IMG/VR virus record: IMGVR_UViG_3300028840_005768
Span: 42,102 to 106,101 of that record
Source of the DNA: a virus
DNA length: 64,000 bases
Reading direction: 5' to 3' (one strand)
This document shows, in pieces, positions 47,476 to 63,935 of the stretch. Below the pieces are notes generated by a model. The model was not told the DNA's origin and did no database searches. It worked only from the letters and a program-made list of their open reading frames with translations. Each line of letters begins with the position of its first letter. Within the stretch, counting starts at the first letter, position 1. The position numbers and the translations under genes were made by a program.

Positions 47476-47853
47476 TCACAAAGAATGAATGGAGGAATCT
47501 GTAAAATCACCATCACAAATCACTTTGACAAGCATGGAGACGAGAAGATCAATGTCATCGGTACGATGCGTCTCGGTGCCGTCTTGAAGAATCACATAGA
47601 CCGGCAAACGGTGGATACGGTATTTCTGTACCAACCGCGGATGCTTGTCAAAATCAACCTCCGTGACATTTACACCACACTTACAAATCTCCTCCAACTG
47701 AGAATGATCACGTCGACAGGCACCACACCACGTCGCCGTGAAAGCCAACACTTCAACCTTTGGCTCACTGGATTGCCCCATCTTGGCGACACTTACCGAA
47801 ACAACAGCAAACATGAGCGCCACGAGGCAGAAGATGAAGAAAGGTGATTTCAT
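47476..47853 (-). CDS. Secreted thioredoxin-like protein
   Basis: 125 residues. Residues 1-23 form a signal peptide (MKSPFFIFCLVALMFAVVSV). The thioredoxin active site is FTATWCGACRRDH with Cys43 and Cys46, and the later cis-Pro is in HRLPVYVILQDG. CKCGVNVTEVDFDKHP may add a disulfide. An exported oxidoreductase could help fold disulfide-bonded virion or host proteins in the periplasm. Sited in the late operon between a papain-like protein and the terminase. Confidence 0.8.
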   Translation of the reverse strand: MKSPFFIFCLVALMFAVVSVSVAKMGQSSEPKVEVLAFTATWCGACRRDHSQLEEICKCGVNVTEVDFDKHPRLVQKYRIHRLPVYVILQDGTETHRTDDIDLLVSMLVKVICDGDFTDSSIHSL

Positions 47854-51482: not shown

Positions 51483-51728
51483 ATGCGACAGTACCAGATC
51501 CTCTACCGTAAGCCCGAGACCGATTGGGTCCAGCTCGAGCCCCACATCCACAGCCGCATCTACGATCGGCCCGAAATCAACGCGTCAATTGAGTACATGA
51601 AGGAGAACTGCCGTGTCGAGGGGATGGCGATCCGGTTGGAAGCGGAACTCTTCAACCTCATTGCCTGCGACAAACCCAAACTGGAGCTGAACTCCTTCCC
51701 CATGGAGGCGGCGGATGCGACGACGTAG
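51483..51728 (+). CDS. Hypothetical protein opening the plus-strand cassette
   Basis: 81 residues. MRQYQILYRKPETDWVQLEP, then an alpha-helical middle (INASIEYMKENCRVEGMAIR). An AGGAG ribosome site lies 6 nt before the ATG. It lies next to the divergent late promoter. No plus-strand promoter is clear. Function unknown. Confidence 0.6.
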   Translation: MRQYQILYRKPETDWVQLEPHIHSRIYDRPEINASIEYMKENCRVEGMAIRLEAELFNLIACDKPKLELNSFPMEAADATT

Positions 51729-52227
51729 ACGTACCCCCAAGCCGGCGCCCAAGCCTGCGGCCAAACCGCAGCTCCGCATGCAGATCACCTACGAGTGTCG
51801 GGTCCATCATCAAGACCTGGAGGCATTCTTGGCCCAAGTCTACGGGACCGTTGGCTACGACGTCCTCCGGGCCACAGGTGTTTCCCGCGGCATGATCCCT
51901 GAATTCATCGTAACCGGAACCCTTCCGCCAGCCACCAACATTGAACAGCAGGCCGACGCAATCCGGCGGGGGCGGAGAACACAGAATCTCCACCTGGTCT
52001 TGAACGTCCTCTGCCAGGACGGGTTCATTCCCGCCGGCAAGTATGTGATCGACACCACCAAACGTGAAAGTCCGATCGTCGTTTACACGCGACTGCTCAA
52101 TACGACCCATGACCCGAATCACCCCCGATGTCTCGCCTTCAAACGCAAACATCAGGGCAACACTCAGTTTATGAAACGCGCCGCCATTCTCGATCGCAGA
52201 GCCAACCAGGAACAAAGGGATGTATGA
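51715..52227 (+). CDS. Hypothetical basic protein
   Basis: 170 residues. Residues 1-20 are very basic (MRRRRRTPKPAPKPAAKPQL), followed by a domain with TGVSRGMIPEFIVTGTLPPA and KYVIDTTKRESPIVVYTRLL. The start overlaps the upstream stop by 14 bases and the end overlaps the SufU-like gene by 8. May bind nucleic acid. No family recognised. Confidence 0.6.
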   Translation: MRRRRRTPKPAPKPAAKPQLRMQITYECRVHHQDLEAFLAQVYGTVGYDVLRATGVSRGMIPEFIVTGTLPPATNIEQQADAIRRGRRTQNLHLVLNVLCQDGFIPAGKYVIDTTKRESPIVVYTRLLNTTHDPNHPRCLAFKRKHQGNTQFMKRAAILDRRANQEQRDV

Positions 52228-52573
52228 AGAACACGTCCTTGGCCACTACCAAGTACCATATCACCGCGGCCGTCTATACAAACCGACCCATCGTGGCACC
52301 GCGGTCAGCACAGTCTGTGGAGATCACGTAACCATAGAACTTCACATTGCCAATGACCAAATTGGCAGTATTGCGTGGGATGGGTATGGCTGCTGTTTCT
52401 CACAAGCAGCCGCCTCGATGCTCGTCAAGCATCTCCATGGAAGGGAGTCTTCCACCATTGATCAACTCAATGAAGCGGACATGTTCCGACTCTTTCAAGC
52501 TGATGTCCCCGATGTTCGGAGACAATGTGTCCTTGTTGCTTATCACGCCTTGAAGAACCTGGAGACAGTCTGA
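52220..52573 (+). CDS. IscU/SufU-like Fe-S cluster scaffold protein
   Basis: 117 residues. MYEEHVLGHYQVPYHRG matches the family start. The three cluster ligands and the Asp are in place: Cys33 and Asp35 in STVCGDHVTIEL, Cys58 in WDGYGCCFSQAAASMLVKHL, and Cys103 in RRQCVLVAYHALK. IscU/SufU proteins assemble [2Fe-2S] or sulfur transfer intermediates for apo-enzymes. Its overlap with and closeness to the radical SAM gene suggest it supplies that enzyme's [4Fe-4S] cluster. No cysteine desulfurase or transfer partner is seen, so host SufS/IscS would be needed. Confidence 0.82.
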   Translation: MYEEHVLGHYQVPYHRGRLYKPTHRGTAVSTVCGDHVTIELHIANDQIGSIAWDGYGCCFSQAAASMLVKHLHGRESSTIDQLNEADMFRLFQADVPDVRRQCVLVAYHALKNLETV

Positions 52574-52881: not shown

Positions 52882-53732
52882 AGACGCACACCTTCTCCAT
52901 CGTCGTTGGCACAGCCGCTTGCAACGCCGACTGTCCGTACTGCGTCAGCAAAATGACGCGAACGGCGGCCGGCAGACTGGACGTGAATTGGCGCCGCTTC
53001 CGCACTGCCTGCAACATGGTCTGCCACGCAAGCGACGGGTTGATCAGCGTCCTTCTGACCGGGAAGGGTGAACCATTGCTCTTCCCAGAATTGATCAGTG
53101 ATTACTTGCGGGAAATGCAAGCGTACGCTTTCCCGTTGATTGATCTGCAGACAAACGGCATTCTCATCGAGCACAGCCACGAGCAGCTCAAGCATTGGAG
53201 AGATCAGGGTCTCACTCTTGTCTGCATCTCCATCTGTGACTACGACCCGGCGATCAGCCGTCGCTTGATGCGGATCAAAGAGGAATTCAACTTCTGGTCC
53301 GCTGTCGAACGAATCCACAACGCCGGCCTGGCCGTGCGTCTCAACTGCACAATGCTGAATGACGGGATCTCGACACCGGAGCAAGTGGAACACCTCATCG
53401 ATCGCTGTGTTTGCCATGGGGTCGAGCAACTCACCTTACGTGAAGTCGCACGACCCAGCCTGCCCATCGAACACCCCGCCGTTCAGTTTGTCGACGAACA
53501 GAAGCCGCATGACGCCGCCCGCCGGCTGTATCACTACTTGGAAATGAACAACGCCTTCAAACTCCTCGAATTGCCGCACGGCGGCCTCGTCTATGACTAC
53601 CGCAGACAGAACGTCTGCATCGGCAACTGCCTGACCAGTACCACCGATCCCAACGACATCCGACAGATCATCTTCTTCCCGGACGGACGAATCACGTACG
53701 ACTGGAACCACCTTGGAGCAAGACTGTTATGA
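52878..53732 (+). CDS. Radical SAM protein
   Basis: 284 residues from ATG 52878-52880. The [4Fe-4S] motif is AACNADCPYCVSKMT with Cys15, Cys19 and Cys22 (CxxxCxxC). A SAM-binding GE pair is in LLTGKGEPLLFPELI, followed by IDLQTNGILIE. The C-terminus holds NVCIGNCL and IIFFPDGRITYDWNH, like the substrate-end of many small-molecule radical SAM enzymes. The start overlaps the upstream stop as ATGA and the end overlaps DeoC. The substrate is unknown; a nucleobase or nucleoside is suggested by the neighbours. Confidence 0.82.
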   Translation: MKTHTFSIVVGTAACNADCPYCVSKMTRTAAGRLDVNWRRFRTACNMVCHASDGLISVLLTGKGEPLLFPELISDYLREMQAYAFPLIDLQTNGILIEHSHEQLKHWRDQGLTLVCISICDYDPAISRRLMRIKEEFNFWSAVERIHNAGLAVRLNCTMLNDGISTPEQVEHLIDRCVCHGVEQLTLREVARPSLPIEHPAVQFVDEQKPHDAARRLYHYLEMNNAFKLLELPHGGLVYDYRRQNVCIGNCLTSTTDPNDIRQIIFFPDGRITYDWNHLGARLL

Positions 53733-54379
53733 ATTACACCAAAGAGGACATCGCTGCCGCCCTGGACCTGGCCGTTCTCAAGCCAACTGCCACGATGGAA
53801 GATGTGAGATGCGCTTGTGCCTTGGCCAATAAACACGGCATCAAGAGTGTCTGTGTTGCACCTGTCTACATTTGGCTGGCTGCCAGCATGCATGACAACG
53901 TGTCAACGGTCATTGCCTTCCCGCATGGTAACACGGTACCCAATGCAAAACTCGAGGAAGCCTACCTCGCAATGACCAACGGTGCCCGTGAACTCGACGT
54001 TGTCGTCAACTACGGACGATTCCTGGATGGCGACCATGACATCGTGTTTGCCGAGCTGAAGCCCATTATCACCCGTGCCAGACGGTATGGTGCCAAGGTC
54101 AAGGCCATCCTAGAGACCTGCTACTACACACCTGCACAACTCGTGGATGCCTGCAATCGTTGCATTGAAGCAGGTGTCGACTTCCTGAAGACATCCACCG
54201 GCTTCGGACGTGAAGGAGCTGATCCAAAGCGTGTCAACCTCATGCTCAATGCCGCTGAAGGTACCGACGTTGAGGTGAAGGCGTCCGGCGGCATCCGAGC
54301 TTACGCCGATGCAGAACGCTACCTCGACATGGGCTGTACCCGCCTTGGCTCTTCTCACTTCTTGGAGTTGCTACCGTGA
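53729..54379 (+). CDS. deoC: Deoxyribose-phosphate aldolase
   Basis: 216 residues of the class I aldolase fold. DFLKTSTGFG places the Schiff-base Lys154, VKASGGIR gives the second lysine Lys184, and GARELDVVVNYG gives Asp90. The enzyme interconverts 2-deoxyribose 5-phosphate with acetaldehyde plus glyceraldehyde 3-phosphate. It starts ATGA-overlapped with the radical SAM gene. It could recycle sugar from broken host DNA or remove deoxyribose phosphate made by base exchange. Confidence 0.9.
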   Translation: MNYTKEDIAAALDLAVLKPTATMEDVRCACALANKHGIKSVCVAPVYIWLAASMHDNVSTVIAFPHGNTVPNAKLEEAYLAMTNGARELDVVVNYGRFLDGDHDIVFAELKPIITRARRYGAKVKAILETCYYTPAQLVDACNRCIEAGVDFLKTSTGFGREGADPKRVNLMLNAAEGTDVEVKASGGIRAYADAERYLDMGCTRLGSSHFLELLP

Positions 54380-54915
54380 ACAGACTTGCAGGCATGCGTG
54401 GCTACTTGTGTGGCGCCATGGACCGTGTCGACGACGGCGGCATCGGTTGGCGTCGGCGTCTCAAGCATGAGCTTGAAGACCTGAATGTTCATTGGTTGGA
54501 TCCCACACGAAAGCCCATCGATATCGGCATCGAAGACTTGGAAAATCGCCAGTTACGCCGTGACAACAAACATCAAGGCGACTTCGACTCTGTCCGTCGA
54601 GAGATGAAAATTGTCCGGTGTGTTGATCTACGAATGGTTGACATCTGTGACTTCATGCCGGTGCGCATCGATCTGGATGTCCATGCCTGTGGCACCTACG
54701 AAGAGATCACGACGGCGAACCGACAGAAGAAGCCGATCCTCGCGCATGTTGTCCAAGGAAAGGAAAACGCCCCCGACTGGCTCTTTGGGATGCTCCCGCA
54801 CGAATTGATCTTCTCAACAGAAGATGAAGTGTGCGCCTACCTCCGACACATCGCCCACACCCCCGACATCAACACTCTCAACCGCTGGTACTTCTTCAAC
54901 TTCTGTGGTGAATGA
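54376..54915 (+). CDS. Nucleoside 2-deoxyribosyltransferase-like protein
   Basis: 179 residues from GTG 54376. MRGYLCGAMDRVDDGGIGWR is the nucleotide-binding start and VHACGTYEEITTANRQKKPI holds the Gly-Thr-x-x-Glu catalytic segment of this superfamily. IGIEDLENRQLRRDNKHQGD and VVDICDFMPV-like parts follow the fold. It may move a base between deoxyribosides or hydrolyse a nucleotide. The overlap with DeoC, as GTGA, supports a joint nucleoside pathway. Confidence 0.75.
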   Translation: MNRLAGMRGYLCGAMDRVDDGGIGWRRRLKHELEDLNVHWLDPTRKPIDIGIEDLENRQLRRDNKHQGDFDSVRREMKIVRCVDLRMVDICDFMPVRIDLDVHACGTYEEITTANRQKKPILAHVVQGKENAPDWLFGMLPHELIFSTEDEVCAYLRHIAHTPDINTLNRWYFFNFCGE

Positions 54916-55418
54916 TGAAGAACACTTGGTTCACCGCAGACACCCACTTCGATCACGAAGGCATCTTCGAGCATATCCCCGAGCGCGTCACCGCCTTCCA
55001 TGACGTGCTTGAAATGGGAACGGCATTCGTCGATGGGATCAATGCTTACGTGAAGCGAGGCGATCGATTGATCCACCTCGGGGACTTCTGTTGGAGAGCA
55101 CATCGCGCCGGACACTGGAGACAACGCCTCAACGTCCGCGAACTGTGGGTCTGCCAAGGAAATCACGACGCCTCATCCCTGCGACGGCATGTCTCACGGA
55201 TGGAGTTGATGATCTTCTTCCAGAACTTGCACCTCAGCCACTACCCGTTGGCCTGCTGGCACAAGAAGTACACAGGTGGGCTCCATCTGCACGGACACAG
55301 CCACGGTCGGATGCAAACGATACCAGGTCGGCTCGACGTCGGCATCGATCCGATCTTCCGGCTGACAGGCGAGTGGCGGCCGATCCATCTTGACGAGGTT
55401 CTCGAACAATGCCGATGA
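54912..55418 (+). CDS. Calcineurin-like metallophosphoesterase
   Basis: 168 residues. The metal-binding motifs are FTADTHFDH (DxH), LGDFCWRA (GD), CQGNHDAS (GNHD), LSHYPL and LHGHSHGR. This short form is common in phages and may remove phosphates from nucleotides or 2',3'-cyclic phosphates. Two adjacent ATG codons (54912 and 54915) are possible starts. Overlaps the deoxyribosyltransferase-like stop, so it is a cassette member and perhaps dephosphorylates nucleotide intermediates. Confidence 0.85.
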   Translation: MMKNTWFTADTHFDHEGIFEHIPERVTAFHDVLEMGTAFVDGINAYVKRGDRLIHLGDFCWRAHRAGHWRQRLNVRELWVCQGNHDASSLRRHVSRMELMIFFQNLHLSHYPLACWHKKYTGGLHLHGHSHGRMQTIPGRLDVGIDPIFRLTGEWRPIHLDEVLEQCR

Positions 55419-56346: not shown

Positions 56347-56610
56347 TCACCCACTTGCCAATTCATTCGCGACCTTTTCAATCTCGGCTAACATGGCACC
56401 CATCGCAGCGTGCCAGATACGGGCATCCGTTGGTCGAAACTTGTCTTGCGGTGCCACACCGCGAAAGGAGATCCATACCTCTCGCCTCTGCCCCGGCGGC
56501 GGCTTGTGAATGTCTGCCTGGATCGTCAAATGCTTATGCCGCTTCGTATGGAACGGGGCTATGATCAGTTGTACACCCCAATCCTGGTCCGTCCGTTCAA
56601 TCGTCGACAT
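56347..56610 (-). CDS. Hypothetical protein
   Basis: 87 residues. A beta-hairpin rich start (DWGVQLIIAPFHTKRHKHLT) and a helical end (IWHAAMGAMLAEIEKVANEL). Overlaps the TadE-like gene by 14 bases and is the last gene of the SprT operon. No function recognised. Confidence 0.58.
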   Translation of the reverse strand: MSTIERTDQDWGVQLIIAPFHTKRHKHLTIQADIHKPPPGQRREVWISFRGVAPQDKFRPTDARIWHAAMGAMLAEIEKVANELASG

Positions 56611-57001
56611 TGCCGGGCTCCTTGAACATGGTCGTTCGCCCGGTCATCATTGTATCAATCCAGAATGGGGTCATCCAGGCGACCTCCTCGAAATTGACTG
56701 ACGCGCTAACTGTCACCCGGTCGTCCAGCTCCTCAATGACGACATGCAGACGCTTGGTACCAATGACATTGGACCACTGGAGACCGGCTTCCGGGTCCTC
56801 AAGCCCCCAGAAACAGGCATTTGCCGCCAAATCAACCTGAGAGGATCCGCTGGATGCATAACGAGCCCCGACCGCGGAAGCGGTCGTCAGCTTCTGCTGT
56901 ACCTGGATCATCCGACCGAACTCGATCGTGCCCAGAAGCAAGAGCAAGAACAACGGCAACGTCACGGCAAATTCAACAGTAGCTGCACCTCGTCTCTTCA
57001 T
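56597..57001 (-). CDS. TadE-like pseudopilin
   Basis: 134 residues. MKRRGAATVEFAVTLPLFLL, then LLLGTIEFGRMIQVQQKLTT and ASAVGARYA match TadE-family pseudopilins closely: a short Arg-rich leader, Glu at position 5 after the processing Gly and a hydrophobic helix. The C-terminal half (LHVVIEELDDRVTVSASVNF) is the usual beta domain. TadE is part of the tight-adherence (Tad/Flp) pilus of bacteria and is very unusual in a phage. No Flp, TadA or prepilin peptidase is visible nearby, so it is an isolated moron-like gene. Confidence 0.8.
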   Translation of the reverse strand: MKRRGAATVEFAVTLPLFLLLLLGTIEFGRMIQVQQKLTTASAVGARYASSGSSQVDLAANACFWGLEDPEAGLQWSNVIGTKRLHVVIEELDDRVTVSASVNFEEVAWMTPFWIDTMMTGRTTMFKEPGNVDD

Positions 57002-57564
57002 TCAACTGCCTTCATCTTGGTGCCACAGGCACAGGTCGGGGTACCCACCTCGATCCACCGTCGTGACATCCGGCAGATGCACCCGCAGTTCGGGCACTCC
57101 ACCTTCATTTGACGGCAGCTCTGCTTGGGCTTGGAATCAAAAGACACCTTCCCATGAGGATAGGGACCCAGACGTGCCGTCAGCTCTTCCAGGCGATCTC
57201 TCAATGCAGGGCCGGCGTGCGTAGCCGTCATCTTGCCTTCAAGTCCGATTGCTGTCGCAGCACGGCGGAAGGGGGCCCGGTGACCATGGCTCGTACCCAC
57301 GGCGGCATGAACCAGCTCATGTACGAGCGTCTCGCCCACTTCCAGTGGATCAGAAAGAACCGGCGAGACAAACAGCTCATGATGCTCATCTTCCGAGCTA
57401 CTACTCGACCAGCATTCACCAATTCGCCTCTGCTTCCGAGCTTTCCCAGATTGACTCGGCCAGCCACATGATGCTCGAACCTTCTCCGGGATCTCGGCCC
57501 CGGCCTCCAGGAAATCGGGACGAAGCTTGTCAATCAACTGGTTGAGCCAGGCCTCACGAGTCAT
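56998..57564 (-). CDS. SprT-like zinc metalloprotease
   Basis: 188 residues from ATG 57562-57564 with GAGGAG 7 nt upstream. The active site is ETLVHELVHAAVGTSHGHRA with HELVH at 82-86 and a third His near 95. A C-terminal four-cysteine zinc ribbon (VECPNCGCICRMSRRW and TPTCACGTKM) follows, as in SprT/Spartan-type proteins that cleave DNA-bound protein crosslinks. It overlaps the TadE gene as ATGA and is read from a clear sigma70-like promoter. Confidence 0.8.
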   Translation of the reverse strand: MTREAWLNQLIDKLRPDFLEAGAEIPEKVRASCGWPSQSGKARKQRRIGECWSSSSSEDEHHELFVSPVLSDPLEVGETLVHELVHAAVGTSHGHRAPFRRAATAIGLEGKMTATHAGPALRDRLEELTARLGPYPHGKVSFDSKPKQSCRQMKVECPNCGCICRMSRRWIEVGTPTCACGTKMKAVE

Positions 57565-57596
57565 TAGGTGTCTCCTCAAAGGTAGCATCATCTTCA

Positions 57597-57625
57597 AGTA
57601 TAGGTTGCCAGTGACGTCATGTCAA
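57597..57625 (-). promoter_or_regulatory. Sigma70-type promoter for the SprT-TadE operon
   Basis: On the minus strand TTGACA, a 17-nt spacer and TATACT. The -35 is consensus. It is divergent from the promoter of the gene at 57.7 kb. Confidence 0.8.
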
Positions 57626-60903: not shown

Positions 60904-61028
60904 GCTATTGTTACAATGCGCCCCATAATGTATCGAATCGGCCGCGCTTCCTAACCGCGCGCTGGTCGACGGCCCTAAGTTGTTACCCTACAATAGTTTA
61001 CGGTTCTGTTTACGTACACTTGTAATTG

Positions 61029-61672
<644 letters not shown>

Positions 61673-61880
61673 ATATTTTCTCTCAGAATTTTGTAACGAT
61701 TGCCCTAATTATTCACCCTAATCCCTCGCTAGGGTGTCTTATTCTGCAATCGCGACACCGCGCGCCCCGATTCTAGGCGAGAATCCGGCCGGATTCCTCA
61801 TATATAGGGGCGTTTCCGCGCTTGCAGATACGACATTACTCGCAACCCCTTGTGTCATATAGGTTTACAATTCATTGACA
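61673..61880. repeat. Leader repeat copy A (about 200 bp)
   Basis: Shares long exact blocks with 62131-62356: GCTTGCAGATAC, CTAGGCGAGAATCCGGCCGG, CATATATAGGGGCGTTTCCG and others. It holds the palindrome GAATCCGGCCGGATTC and a CACCCTA/TAGGGTG hairpin and runs into a consensus promoter. Confidence 0.8.
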
Positions 61881-62681: not shown

Positions 62682-63935
62682 ATGCAACGTATTGATTGTG
62701 GCGAACAAATCGATCTTACGCTTCCCACCGGAGTTATCAGTCAATCCGGTCGCCGCGAAATTAACACCTATTTGCAATCCTTGGGTTTGCCCAGATTGCC
62801 GGTTTGGTGGGAATGGATTAGTCGTAAGGGGGGTAGGGGTGAGTACGTGGGAAGCTTCCCTAAGCGCGTCGCCAAGTATTACTATCAAACCGTATCGTTC
62901 AAGTTGGACCCCGCCCAACTAGGGCATATCGGCAGTATGGTATCGCGCCACACAAACCGGGAGAATTGGTATTGTATCGACTTTACTGATTCTTTCGATT
63001 GGCAGGATGGTGACTTCGGTGACGATGATTCCTGTTTTTGGGGTGGTCGGAGTCAGGCACGGTCTGACTTAGAATCCGCTGGCGCGCTTGCTATCCGATT
63101 TTACAATGCTGACGGTTATGGCATCGGTCGCGCTTGGATGCTTGACAAGGGCCCCTATTGGGCGGTTTTCAATGGGTATGGCGTGGAAACCCCCGATTGT
63201 GCTCGGATTCTCGCCTATCATCTTGGGTTGTCATATCGCAAGGTTAGTTGTGACAATCGGGGCGATTCTACCGGTTTGATCTATGTAAACGGTGGCGCCG
63301 GTTATATCGTGGGGCCTGAGGAAAACGTCAATGGTGTCGATTATGTCGACCTTGACGTTGACACCAACGAAACCGTCTGTTGTGTTTGTGGCGAGTGTGT
63401 CGACGAAGACGGTGGTATCTACTCGTACGATAATGACTATTATTGCGAGTCGTGCTATTACGACCGATTCTCGCATTGTGAGGATTGCAGCGAAACGTAC
63501 CCCTCTGACGATTTTGTCGAAGTGACAAATCATAGGGGTTATGCTCAGTATGTCTGCGAATACTGCGCTGACAATTACCCGGAATGTGAGGATTGTAACA
63601 GGCGGTTCGCGACCGATTGTATGAACGAGATTGACGGTCGCGCCGTCTGTGACGACTGTGCTTCCGAGTATCCGACTTGTGAGGATTGCGGAGACTGGTG
63701 CAATACTCGTCAATCTGACGGTCGTGTCATCTGTGATGACTGTTGGGGCAAGTATATCGTTTGTGAGGAATGTAACACCTATTCCGATTACTTGACCGAT
63801 CTTGACGGTCGTGCGGTTTGTGTGGCCTGTTCGGTCCGCTTACGGTCCGCCGGACACCAGACACCGGACACCGGGAGCCGGGAGCCGGTCCGCCGGGAGC
63901 CGGTCCGCCGGGAGCCGGTCGCGGTTTGCCAATAG
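62682..63935 (+). CDS. Cys-rich protein with repeated zinc-binding CxxC units; 3' end made of heptamer repeats
   Basis: 417 residues. Residues 1-225 form a unique domain (WEWISRKGGRGEYVGSFPKR, WYCIDFTDSFDWQDGDFGDD, YWAVFNGYGVETPDCARILA). Residues about 228-385 hold some five zinc-ribbon-like units (CCVCGECVDEDGG, CESCYYDRFSHCEDC, CEYCADNYPECEDC, CDDCASEYPTCEDC, CDDCWGKYIVCEECN, CVAC). From residue about 390 the frame runs into heptamer array 4 and reads repeats ending in a chance stop, so the natural end has probably been lost or replaced. GGAGG precedes the ATG. Possibly an RNA- or DNA-binding protein. Confidence 0.68.
   Translation: MQRIDCGEQIDLTLPTGVISQSGRREINTYLQSLGLPRLPVWWEWISRKGGRGEYVGSFPKRVAKYYYQTVSFKLDPAQLGHIGSMVSRHTNRENWYCIDFTDSFDWQDGDFGDDDSCFWGGRSQARSDLESAGALAIRFYNADGYGIGRAWMLDKGPYWAVFNGYGVETPDCARILAYHLGLSYRKVSCDNRGDSTGLIYVNGGAGYIVGPEENVNGVDYVDLDVDTNETVCCVCGECVDEDGGIYSYDNDYYCESCYYDRFSHCEDCSETYPSDDFVEVTNHRGYAQYVCEYCADNYPECEDCNRRFATDCMNEIDGRAVCDDCASEYPTCEDCGDWCNTRQSDGRVICDDCWGKYIVCEECNTYSDYLTDLDGRAVCVACSVRLRSAGHQTPDTGSREPVRREPVRREPVAVCQ

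Follow-up and report, generated by a model that had tools for sequence, protein, structure and literature searches.

Does a phage that encodes a small U-type iron–sulfur (Fe–S) protein depend on the sulfur donor of its host, or does it bring a donor of its own? The question is raised by a 117-aa protein encoded in a 64,000-nucleotide stretch of viral DNA (hereafter the window, C1:42102-106101), which is part of a 106,101-base IMG/VR record (C1). An earlier note on the window had described this protein as an IscU/SufU-like Fe–S scaffold and had expected the phage to tap the sulfur donor of the host. The record is that of a genuine phage, given that it encodes a GpA terminase, a P22-type coat protein, a DNA polymerase A, and a portal protein. 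The terminase is 71% identical to one encoded in the Planctomycetota MAG MB_PLM_2 (G051), and this similarity points to Planctomycetota as the probable host phylum. In the Planctomycetota prophage with the 71% identical terminase (L099), no SufU homologue was found within 10 kb of the terminase gene.

Sequence and Predicted Structure of the Phage SufU

Residues 1–112 of the protein match the NifU_N model (PF01592; E=1e-18, 68.2 bits, cut-off 22) and residues 1–87 match phrog_8429, annotated as "NifU-like Fe-S cluster assembly protein" (2.5e-19); the family assignment is therefore far above chance. The best NCBIfam model is that of SufU (TIGR01994, 6.6e-19), with a score of 68.3 bits that lies under the equivalog cut-off of 92.5 bits, and the IscU model TIGR01999 gives 37.4 bits against a cut-off of 192.4. 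An AlphaFold2 model built from five aligned sequences has a mean pLDDT of 94.4 and matches Archaeoglobus fulgidus IscU (Z 18.9), Aquifex aeolicus IscU with a bound [2Fe-2S] cluster (Z 16.9), Bacillus subtilis SufU (Z 16.6), and Mycobacterium tuberculosis SufU (Z 15.4) in the PDB, the alignments spanning nearly the full chain. The predicted fold is thus U-type, with Z scores of 15–19 to IscU and SufU structures. A Foldseek search of BFVD returned no significant viral match.

The three cluster cysteines and the conserved aspartate claimed in the earlier note are present: Cys33, Asp35, Cys58, and Cys103 occupy the ligand positions of the family, are invariant in this phage, three related phages, and the reference proteins, and form a predicted zinc/sulfur site. 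The four phage proteins also have in common Arg100, the motifs PYH and GCCF, and a further cysteine, Cys59, that adjoins Cys58. The C-terminal part, which the note had considered right for the family, fits neither canonical subfamily. The insertion that SufU proteins carry between the second and third cysteines is absent from the four phage proteins and from the Planctomycetota proteins of loci L112-L116, and the IscU signature, an LPPVK motif and a histidine before the third cysteine, is also missing from the phage SufU, which has DVPDVRRQC there. Judged by its sequence and its partner, the phage SufU appears closer to the SufU side, that of a zinc sulfurtransferase, than to the IscU scaffold. 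What stands of the earlier description is a U-type protein of the NifU_N fold, with all four ligands and from a genuine phage; the scaffold role gives way to a probable sulfurtransferase role.

Gene Neighborhood of the Phage SufU

The genes from SufU through the phosphoesterase overlap by 1–4 bases (table 1), an arrangement that resembles a translationally coupled operon. The upstream 170-aa protein is kept in all four SufU phages, with 42–58% identity in the relatives, and the radical SAM enzyme is 48–60% identical across the SufU-carrying relatives. The slot of gene X is filled in the three relatives by proteins of 228–263 aa that are mutually alike and unlike the 102-aa protein found here. 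DeoC has both catalytic-type lysines (FLKTSTG and VKASGG) and is conserved in the relatives G003 and G039; its search against PHROGs gave no significant match. The 179-aa protein has a 57% identical homologue in G003.

Table 1. Genes of the SufU neighborhood (positions in the window) and the SufS gene (positions in record C1)
Gene product	Position	Strand	Family match or remark
170-aa protein	51715..52227	+	No family; 8-base overlap with SufU
Short SufU-type (NifU_N) protein, 117 aa	52220..52573	+	ATG to TGA; PF01592, phrog_8429
Gene X, 102 aa	52573..52881	+	No family found
Radical SAM enzyme, 284 aa	52878..53732	+	PF04055 E=3e-11; CX3CX2C (CNADCPYC)
Deoxyribose-phosphate aldolase DeoC	53729..54379	+	TIGR00126 183.6 bits, cut-off 117.3
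179-aa protein, weakly nucleoside 2-deoxyribosyltransferase-like	54376..54915	+	PF05014 E=0.024, under cut-off
Phosphoesterase	54912..55418	+	phrog_547 E=2e-34; kept in relatives
SufS cysteine desulfurase, 381 aa	C1:33603-34748 (outside window)	-	TIGR01979 E=3.2e-122

Elsewhere in the window, a gene for a TadE-like pilus protein (56597-57001, minus strand; PF07811 E=2.8e-17) adjoins one for a SprT-like zinc protein (56998-57597), and a protein that has a thioredoxin domain, a CGAC motif, and an apparent signal peptide is encoded upstream of the terminase gene (47476-47853, minus strand). Short repeated units at 60988-61776 and near 63900 give rise to long low-complexity open reading frames on both strands (GSREPVAVR, TPDTGHRTPDT).

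A Cysteine Desulfurase Encoded in the Same Record

The statement of the earlier note that no desulfurase is present holds for the window, but the full record encodes a SufS. Its score against TIGR01979 (408.2 bits) is under the cut-off of 475.1 bits, yet this is the top-scoring family; PF00266 is matched above its cut-off (397 bits), and B. subtilis SufS (5xt5) is matched with 314 bits. The PLP lysine, Lys204, lies in SGHKMHG and the catalytic Cys340 in RAGTHCA. Both residues are conserved in the two phage SufS sequences, this one and that of G003, together with the His319/His321 pair of the HxHD motif, which reads HPHD here and HSHD in G003. By residue count, His321 aligns with B. subtilis His342, which we take to be the zinc-swapping histidine of that enzyme. 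In the M. tuberculosis complex, the corresponding His354 of SufS takes over the zinc position of SufU Cys40, which turns to the SufS cysteine (PMC10216065).

We scored 37 Planctomycetota SufS loci for a SufU within the fetched stretch and found one near 21 of the 23 SufS genes with HxHD and near 1 of the 14 without it (Fisher p=3.8e-7). Because HxHD marks SufS loci with SufU and is present in the phage enzyme, the phage SufS is, by its sequence, of the SufU-dependent kind. The expected reliance on a host sulfur donor is consequently not supported, since the phage carries its own SufS with the SufU-docking motif. The PHROGs family phrog_12787, listed as "unknown function," matches the phage SufS (L003:13606-14748) over its full length (5e-101) and is therefore a cysteine desulfurase-like family. 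SufB/D was not found in the phage record and is present in the three closest host-type genomes (G051, G218, and G325).

Directly after SufS, the minus strand encodes a 256-aa protein (C1:32805-33575; L003:12805-13575) with a CX3CX2C motif (CPIGCGEC) near its start, a conserved C-terminal CxxCxNCETYYWQT, and relatives in five IMG/VR contigs. The protein, which is possibly a divergent radical SAM protein, has no match in Pfam, PHROGs, or NCBIfam, its single-sequence AlphaFold model has a pLDDT of 31, and its gene is absent at the corresponding place in G003. One gene downstream of SufS, G003 has a 1464-aa open reading frame with 40 cysteines (L096:2628-7022, minus strand).

Distribution among Related Phages

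The terminase search yielded 74 related loci, and the check for NifU_N covered 50 records (45 terminase relatives and 5 relatives of the gene after SufS). NifU_N was found in three of these records: G001 (13 kb), G039 (52 kb), and G003 (101 kb). All four SufU phages share the order 170-aa protein, SufU, X, radical SAM enzyme, with DeoC and the phosphoesterase following wherever the record extends far enough. G003, the sole long record of the three, is the only SufU-carrying relative in which SufS was found. Its SufU and SufS lie at the same places as here, and SufS is likewise flanked by exonuclease, kinase, and RNA ligase genes on one side and MazG and methylase genes on the other. SufS was not found in G001 and G039, which counts against a pairing of the two genes, both records being fragments. 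Both SufU and SufS are absent from the other records of at least 80 kb (G011, G025, G027, G032, G040, and G046).

A radical SAM gene accompanies SufU in all four SufU phages. The same gene occurs in the related records G030 and G027 without SufU, so the enzyme does not need SufU everywhere, and this counts against an obligate SufU client. The two genes are thus strongly linked only in the direction from SufU to the radical SAM gene.

Scans of viral contigs that started from the single SufU or SufS sequence gave nothing; alignment-based scans were needed to detect viral relatives of either protein. NifU_N is matched in none of 50 further viral records that carry distant SufS/IscS-like genes. 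The annotated public phage records with SufS and SufU, MaAM05 and ISU935, were set aside because the genes lie inside whole suf operons, and the remaining public matches were set aside as unverified, unannotated contigs.

Shared Ancestry with a Planctomycetota sufU–sufS Operon

Our analysis of ancestry was confined to a sample of 294 Planctomycetota genomes. Within it, the phage SufU and SufS share the genomes of their top cellular matches, G218 and G051 (for SufS also G325), and in both of these sufU adjoins sufS. Short SufU proteins without the insertion are chromosomally encoded in some Planctomycetota (L112-L116); of the five loci fetched, four have the gene beside SufS, and the coordinates place the two side by side in G218 as well. 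In G051, the neighbors of the pair, which we named by eye, are presumably Obg and MnmE. The four phage SufU sequences form one clade (100/98) on long branches, nested in a short-SufU clade whose support (93/97) is just under the starred level, and the two phage SufS sequences form a clade (100/99) next to the SufS of G051, G218, G325, and G256 (97/86). Together, the two trees and the shared best genomes point to common ancestry of both phage genes with a Planctomycetota sufU–sufS operon, which would later have been split in the phage.

The pairs of MB_PLM_2 and G218 resemble the phage pair in their SufU, which lacks the insertion and has the PYH and GCC motifs, and in their HxHD SufS. Identity to the phage SufU is 42% (G051) and 39% (G218), and identity to the phage SufS is 48%. 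Whereas the Planctomycetota genes are adjacent, the phage genes are ~60 kb apart on opposite strands, with SufU in the radical SAM–DeoC operon, a separation that counts against their working as a pair.

Proposed Mechanism and Alternatives

We propose, with a probability of about 0.6, that the phage carries the sulfur-donor arm of a SUF system, in which SufS and SufU would deliver sulfur to the SufBCD of the host. The phage SufS would use PLP bound to Lys204 to remove sulfur from cysteine, keeping it as a Cys340 persulfide. The short SufU, carrying zinc on Cys33, Asp35, Cys58, and Cys103, would dock on SufS, where His321 would replace Cys33 on the zinc and the freed Cys33 would accept the persulfide. 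We infer that SufU would then pass the sulfur on to SufBCD, the scaffold of the host, since the phage itself lacks SufB/D. The likeliest recipient of the additional [4Fe-4S] clusters would be the radical SAM enzyme, whose gene is the second after SufU and which belongs to a type of enzyme that depends on such clusters; we put forward this role as client tentatively, and other Fe–S proteins might perhaps also be supplied during infection. The scores of SufU and SufS under their family cut-offs and the missing SufU insertion count against the donor-arm reading.

Alternatively, the phage SufU might be a true scaffold, in which SufS-fed [2Fe-2S] or [4Fe-4S] clusters would be built on Cys33, Cys58, and Cys103 (with Asp35 and perhaps Cys59) and passed straight to the radical SAM enzyme without the SufBCD of the host. 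Its fold is closest to insertion-less IscU structures, including the cluster-bound A. aeolicus protein, M. tuberculosis SufU has a solved structure in a [2Fe-2S] form (9dcl), Cys59 is invariant next to Cys58, and the phage has no SufBD. Such a scaffold nevertheless seems unlikely to us, as the LPPVK motif and the histidine of IscU are missing, the partner is a SufS-type enzyme with HxHD rather than an IscS, and the scan of the encoded proteins, as far as it went, recognized neither an A-type carrier nor a chaperone or ferredoxin. We offer as a long shot that the insertion-less Cys58-Cys59 SufU represents a distinct cluster-building subclass, present in some Planctomycetota and phages, which together with the phage SufS would form a minimal, SufBCD-independent Fe–S factory devoted to a radical SAM pathway of the phage. 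It is similarly improbable that the SufS–SufU arm feeds an acceptor other than Fe–S clusters, for example in thiolation of tRNA or of nucleotides handled by the DeoC/deoxyribosyltransferase cassette. Desulfurases in general supply several thiolation pathways, according to a review (PMC8300815), and SufU shares an operon with nucleotide-type enzymes, but the scanned proteins, which represent part of the record, include no recognizable thiolase, sulfurtransferase, or PAPS-reductase-like protein.

SufU might also act on the host, competing with or replacing the host SufU and redirecting sulfur during infection, while the phage SufS would serve another purpose. Although the phage protein is a diverged relative of the host-type SufU and SufS was not found in the two fragmentary relatives, the SufU-docking motif is kept in the phage SufS and the origin of both genes from the same kind of operon points to a pair, making this very improbable. 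We give almost no weight to host contamination or a misassembled contig. Most public "phage" SufS and SufU pairs do lie on unannotated contigs or in complete suf operons; here, however, SufU (in G003, G039, and G001) and SufS (in G003) recur within syntenic phage clusters of independent IMG/VR records, both proteins form phage-only clades, and the record contains no SufBD.

Relation to Known Viral and Cellular Systems

The earlier note had regarded U-type scaffolds as rarer in phages; they are uncommon, but had already been reported. IscU has been described in six marine viral genomes, with radical SAM genes noted in such genomes (PMC5332604), iscU occurs in HMO-2011-type phages (PMC9038755), viral contigs sampled in the Cariaco Basin and the eastern tropical North Pacific carry nifU (PMC7785012; PMC8940887), Phage C48C1 has an annotated NifU-like gene, and phrog_8429 matches the phage SufU, although its annotation is by similarity only and no paired SufS is recorded for it. 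The marine phage proteins (those of the six genomes, C48C1, and L102-L107) are U-type NifU_N proteins like the one described here; however, the sequences we examined are IscU proper with LPPVK and the histidine (C48C1 scores 223 bits against TIGR01999, over its cut-off) and are about 22–24% identical to the phage SufU. No desulfurase partner is noted for them in the available text, unlike in the SufS-carrying phage. The SufS–SufU systems of B. subtilis and M. tuberculosis share with the phage pair the Cys/Asp/Cys/Cys ligands of SufU and the zinc-swapping histidine and catalytic cysteine of SufS (PMC10216065), but their SufU proteins have the insertion that the phage SufU lacks and are 20–28% identical to it over the aligned structures. 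Our search of the open-access literature revealed neither a matched SufS and SufU pair in a phage nor such a short SufU. We therefore regard the pair and the insertion-less phage SufU as new, phage U-type scaffolds having been known before.

The earlier reports cited here present viral Fe–S assembly genes as parts that cooperate with the machinery of the host. The phage described here brings a sulfur-making enzyme and its probable specific acceptor, both from one type of host operon, together with a likely consumer, and would thus offer a testable case of a virus that itself provides the cofactor of a radical SAM enzyme. Its SufU, which naturally lacks the insertion that separates SufU from IscU, may also be useful for probing the role of that insertion.
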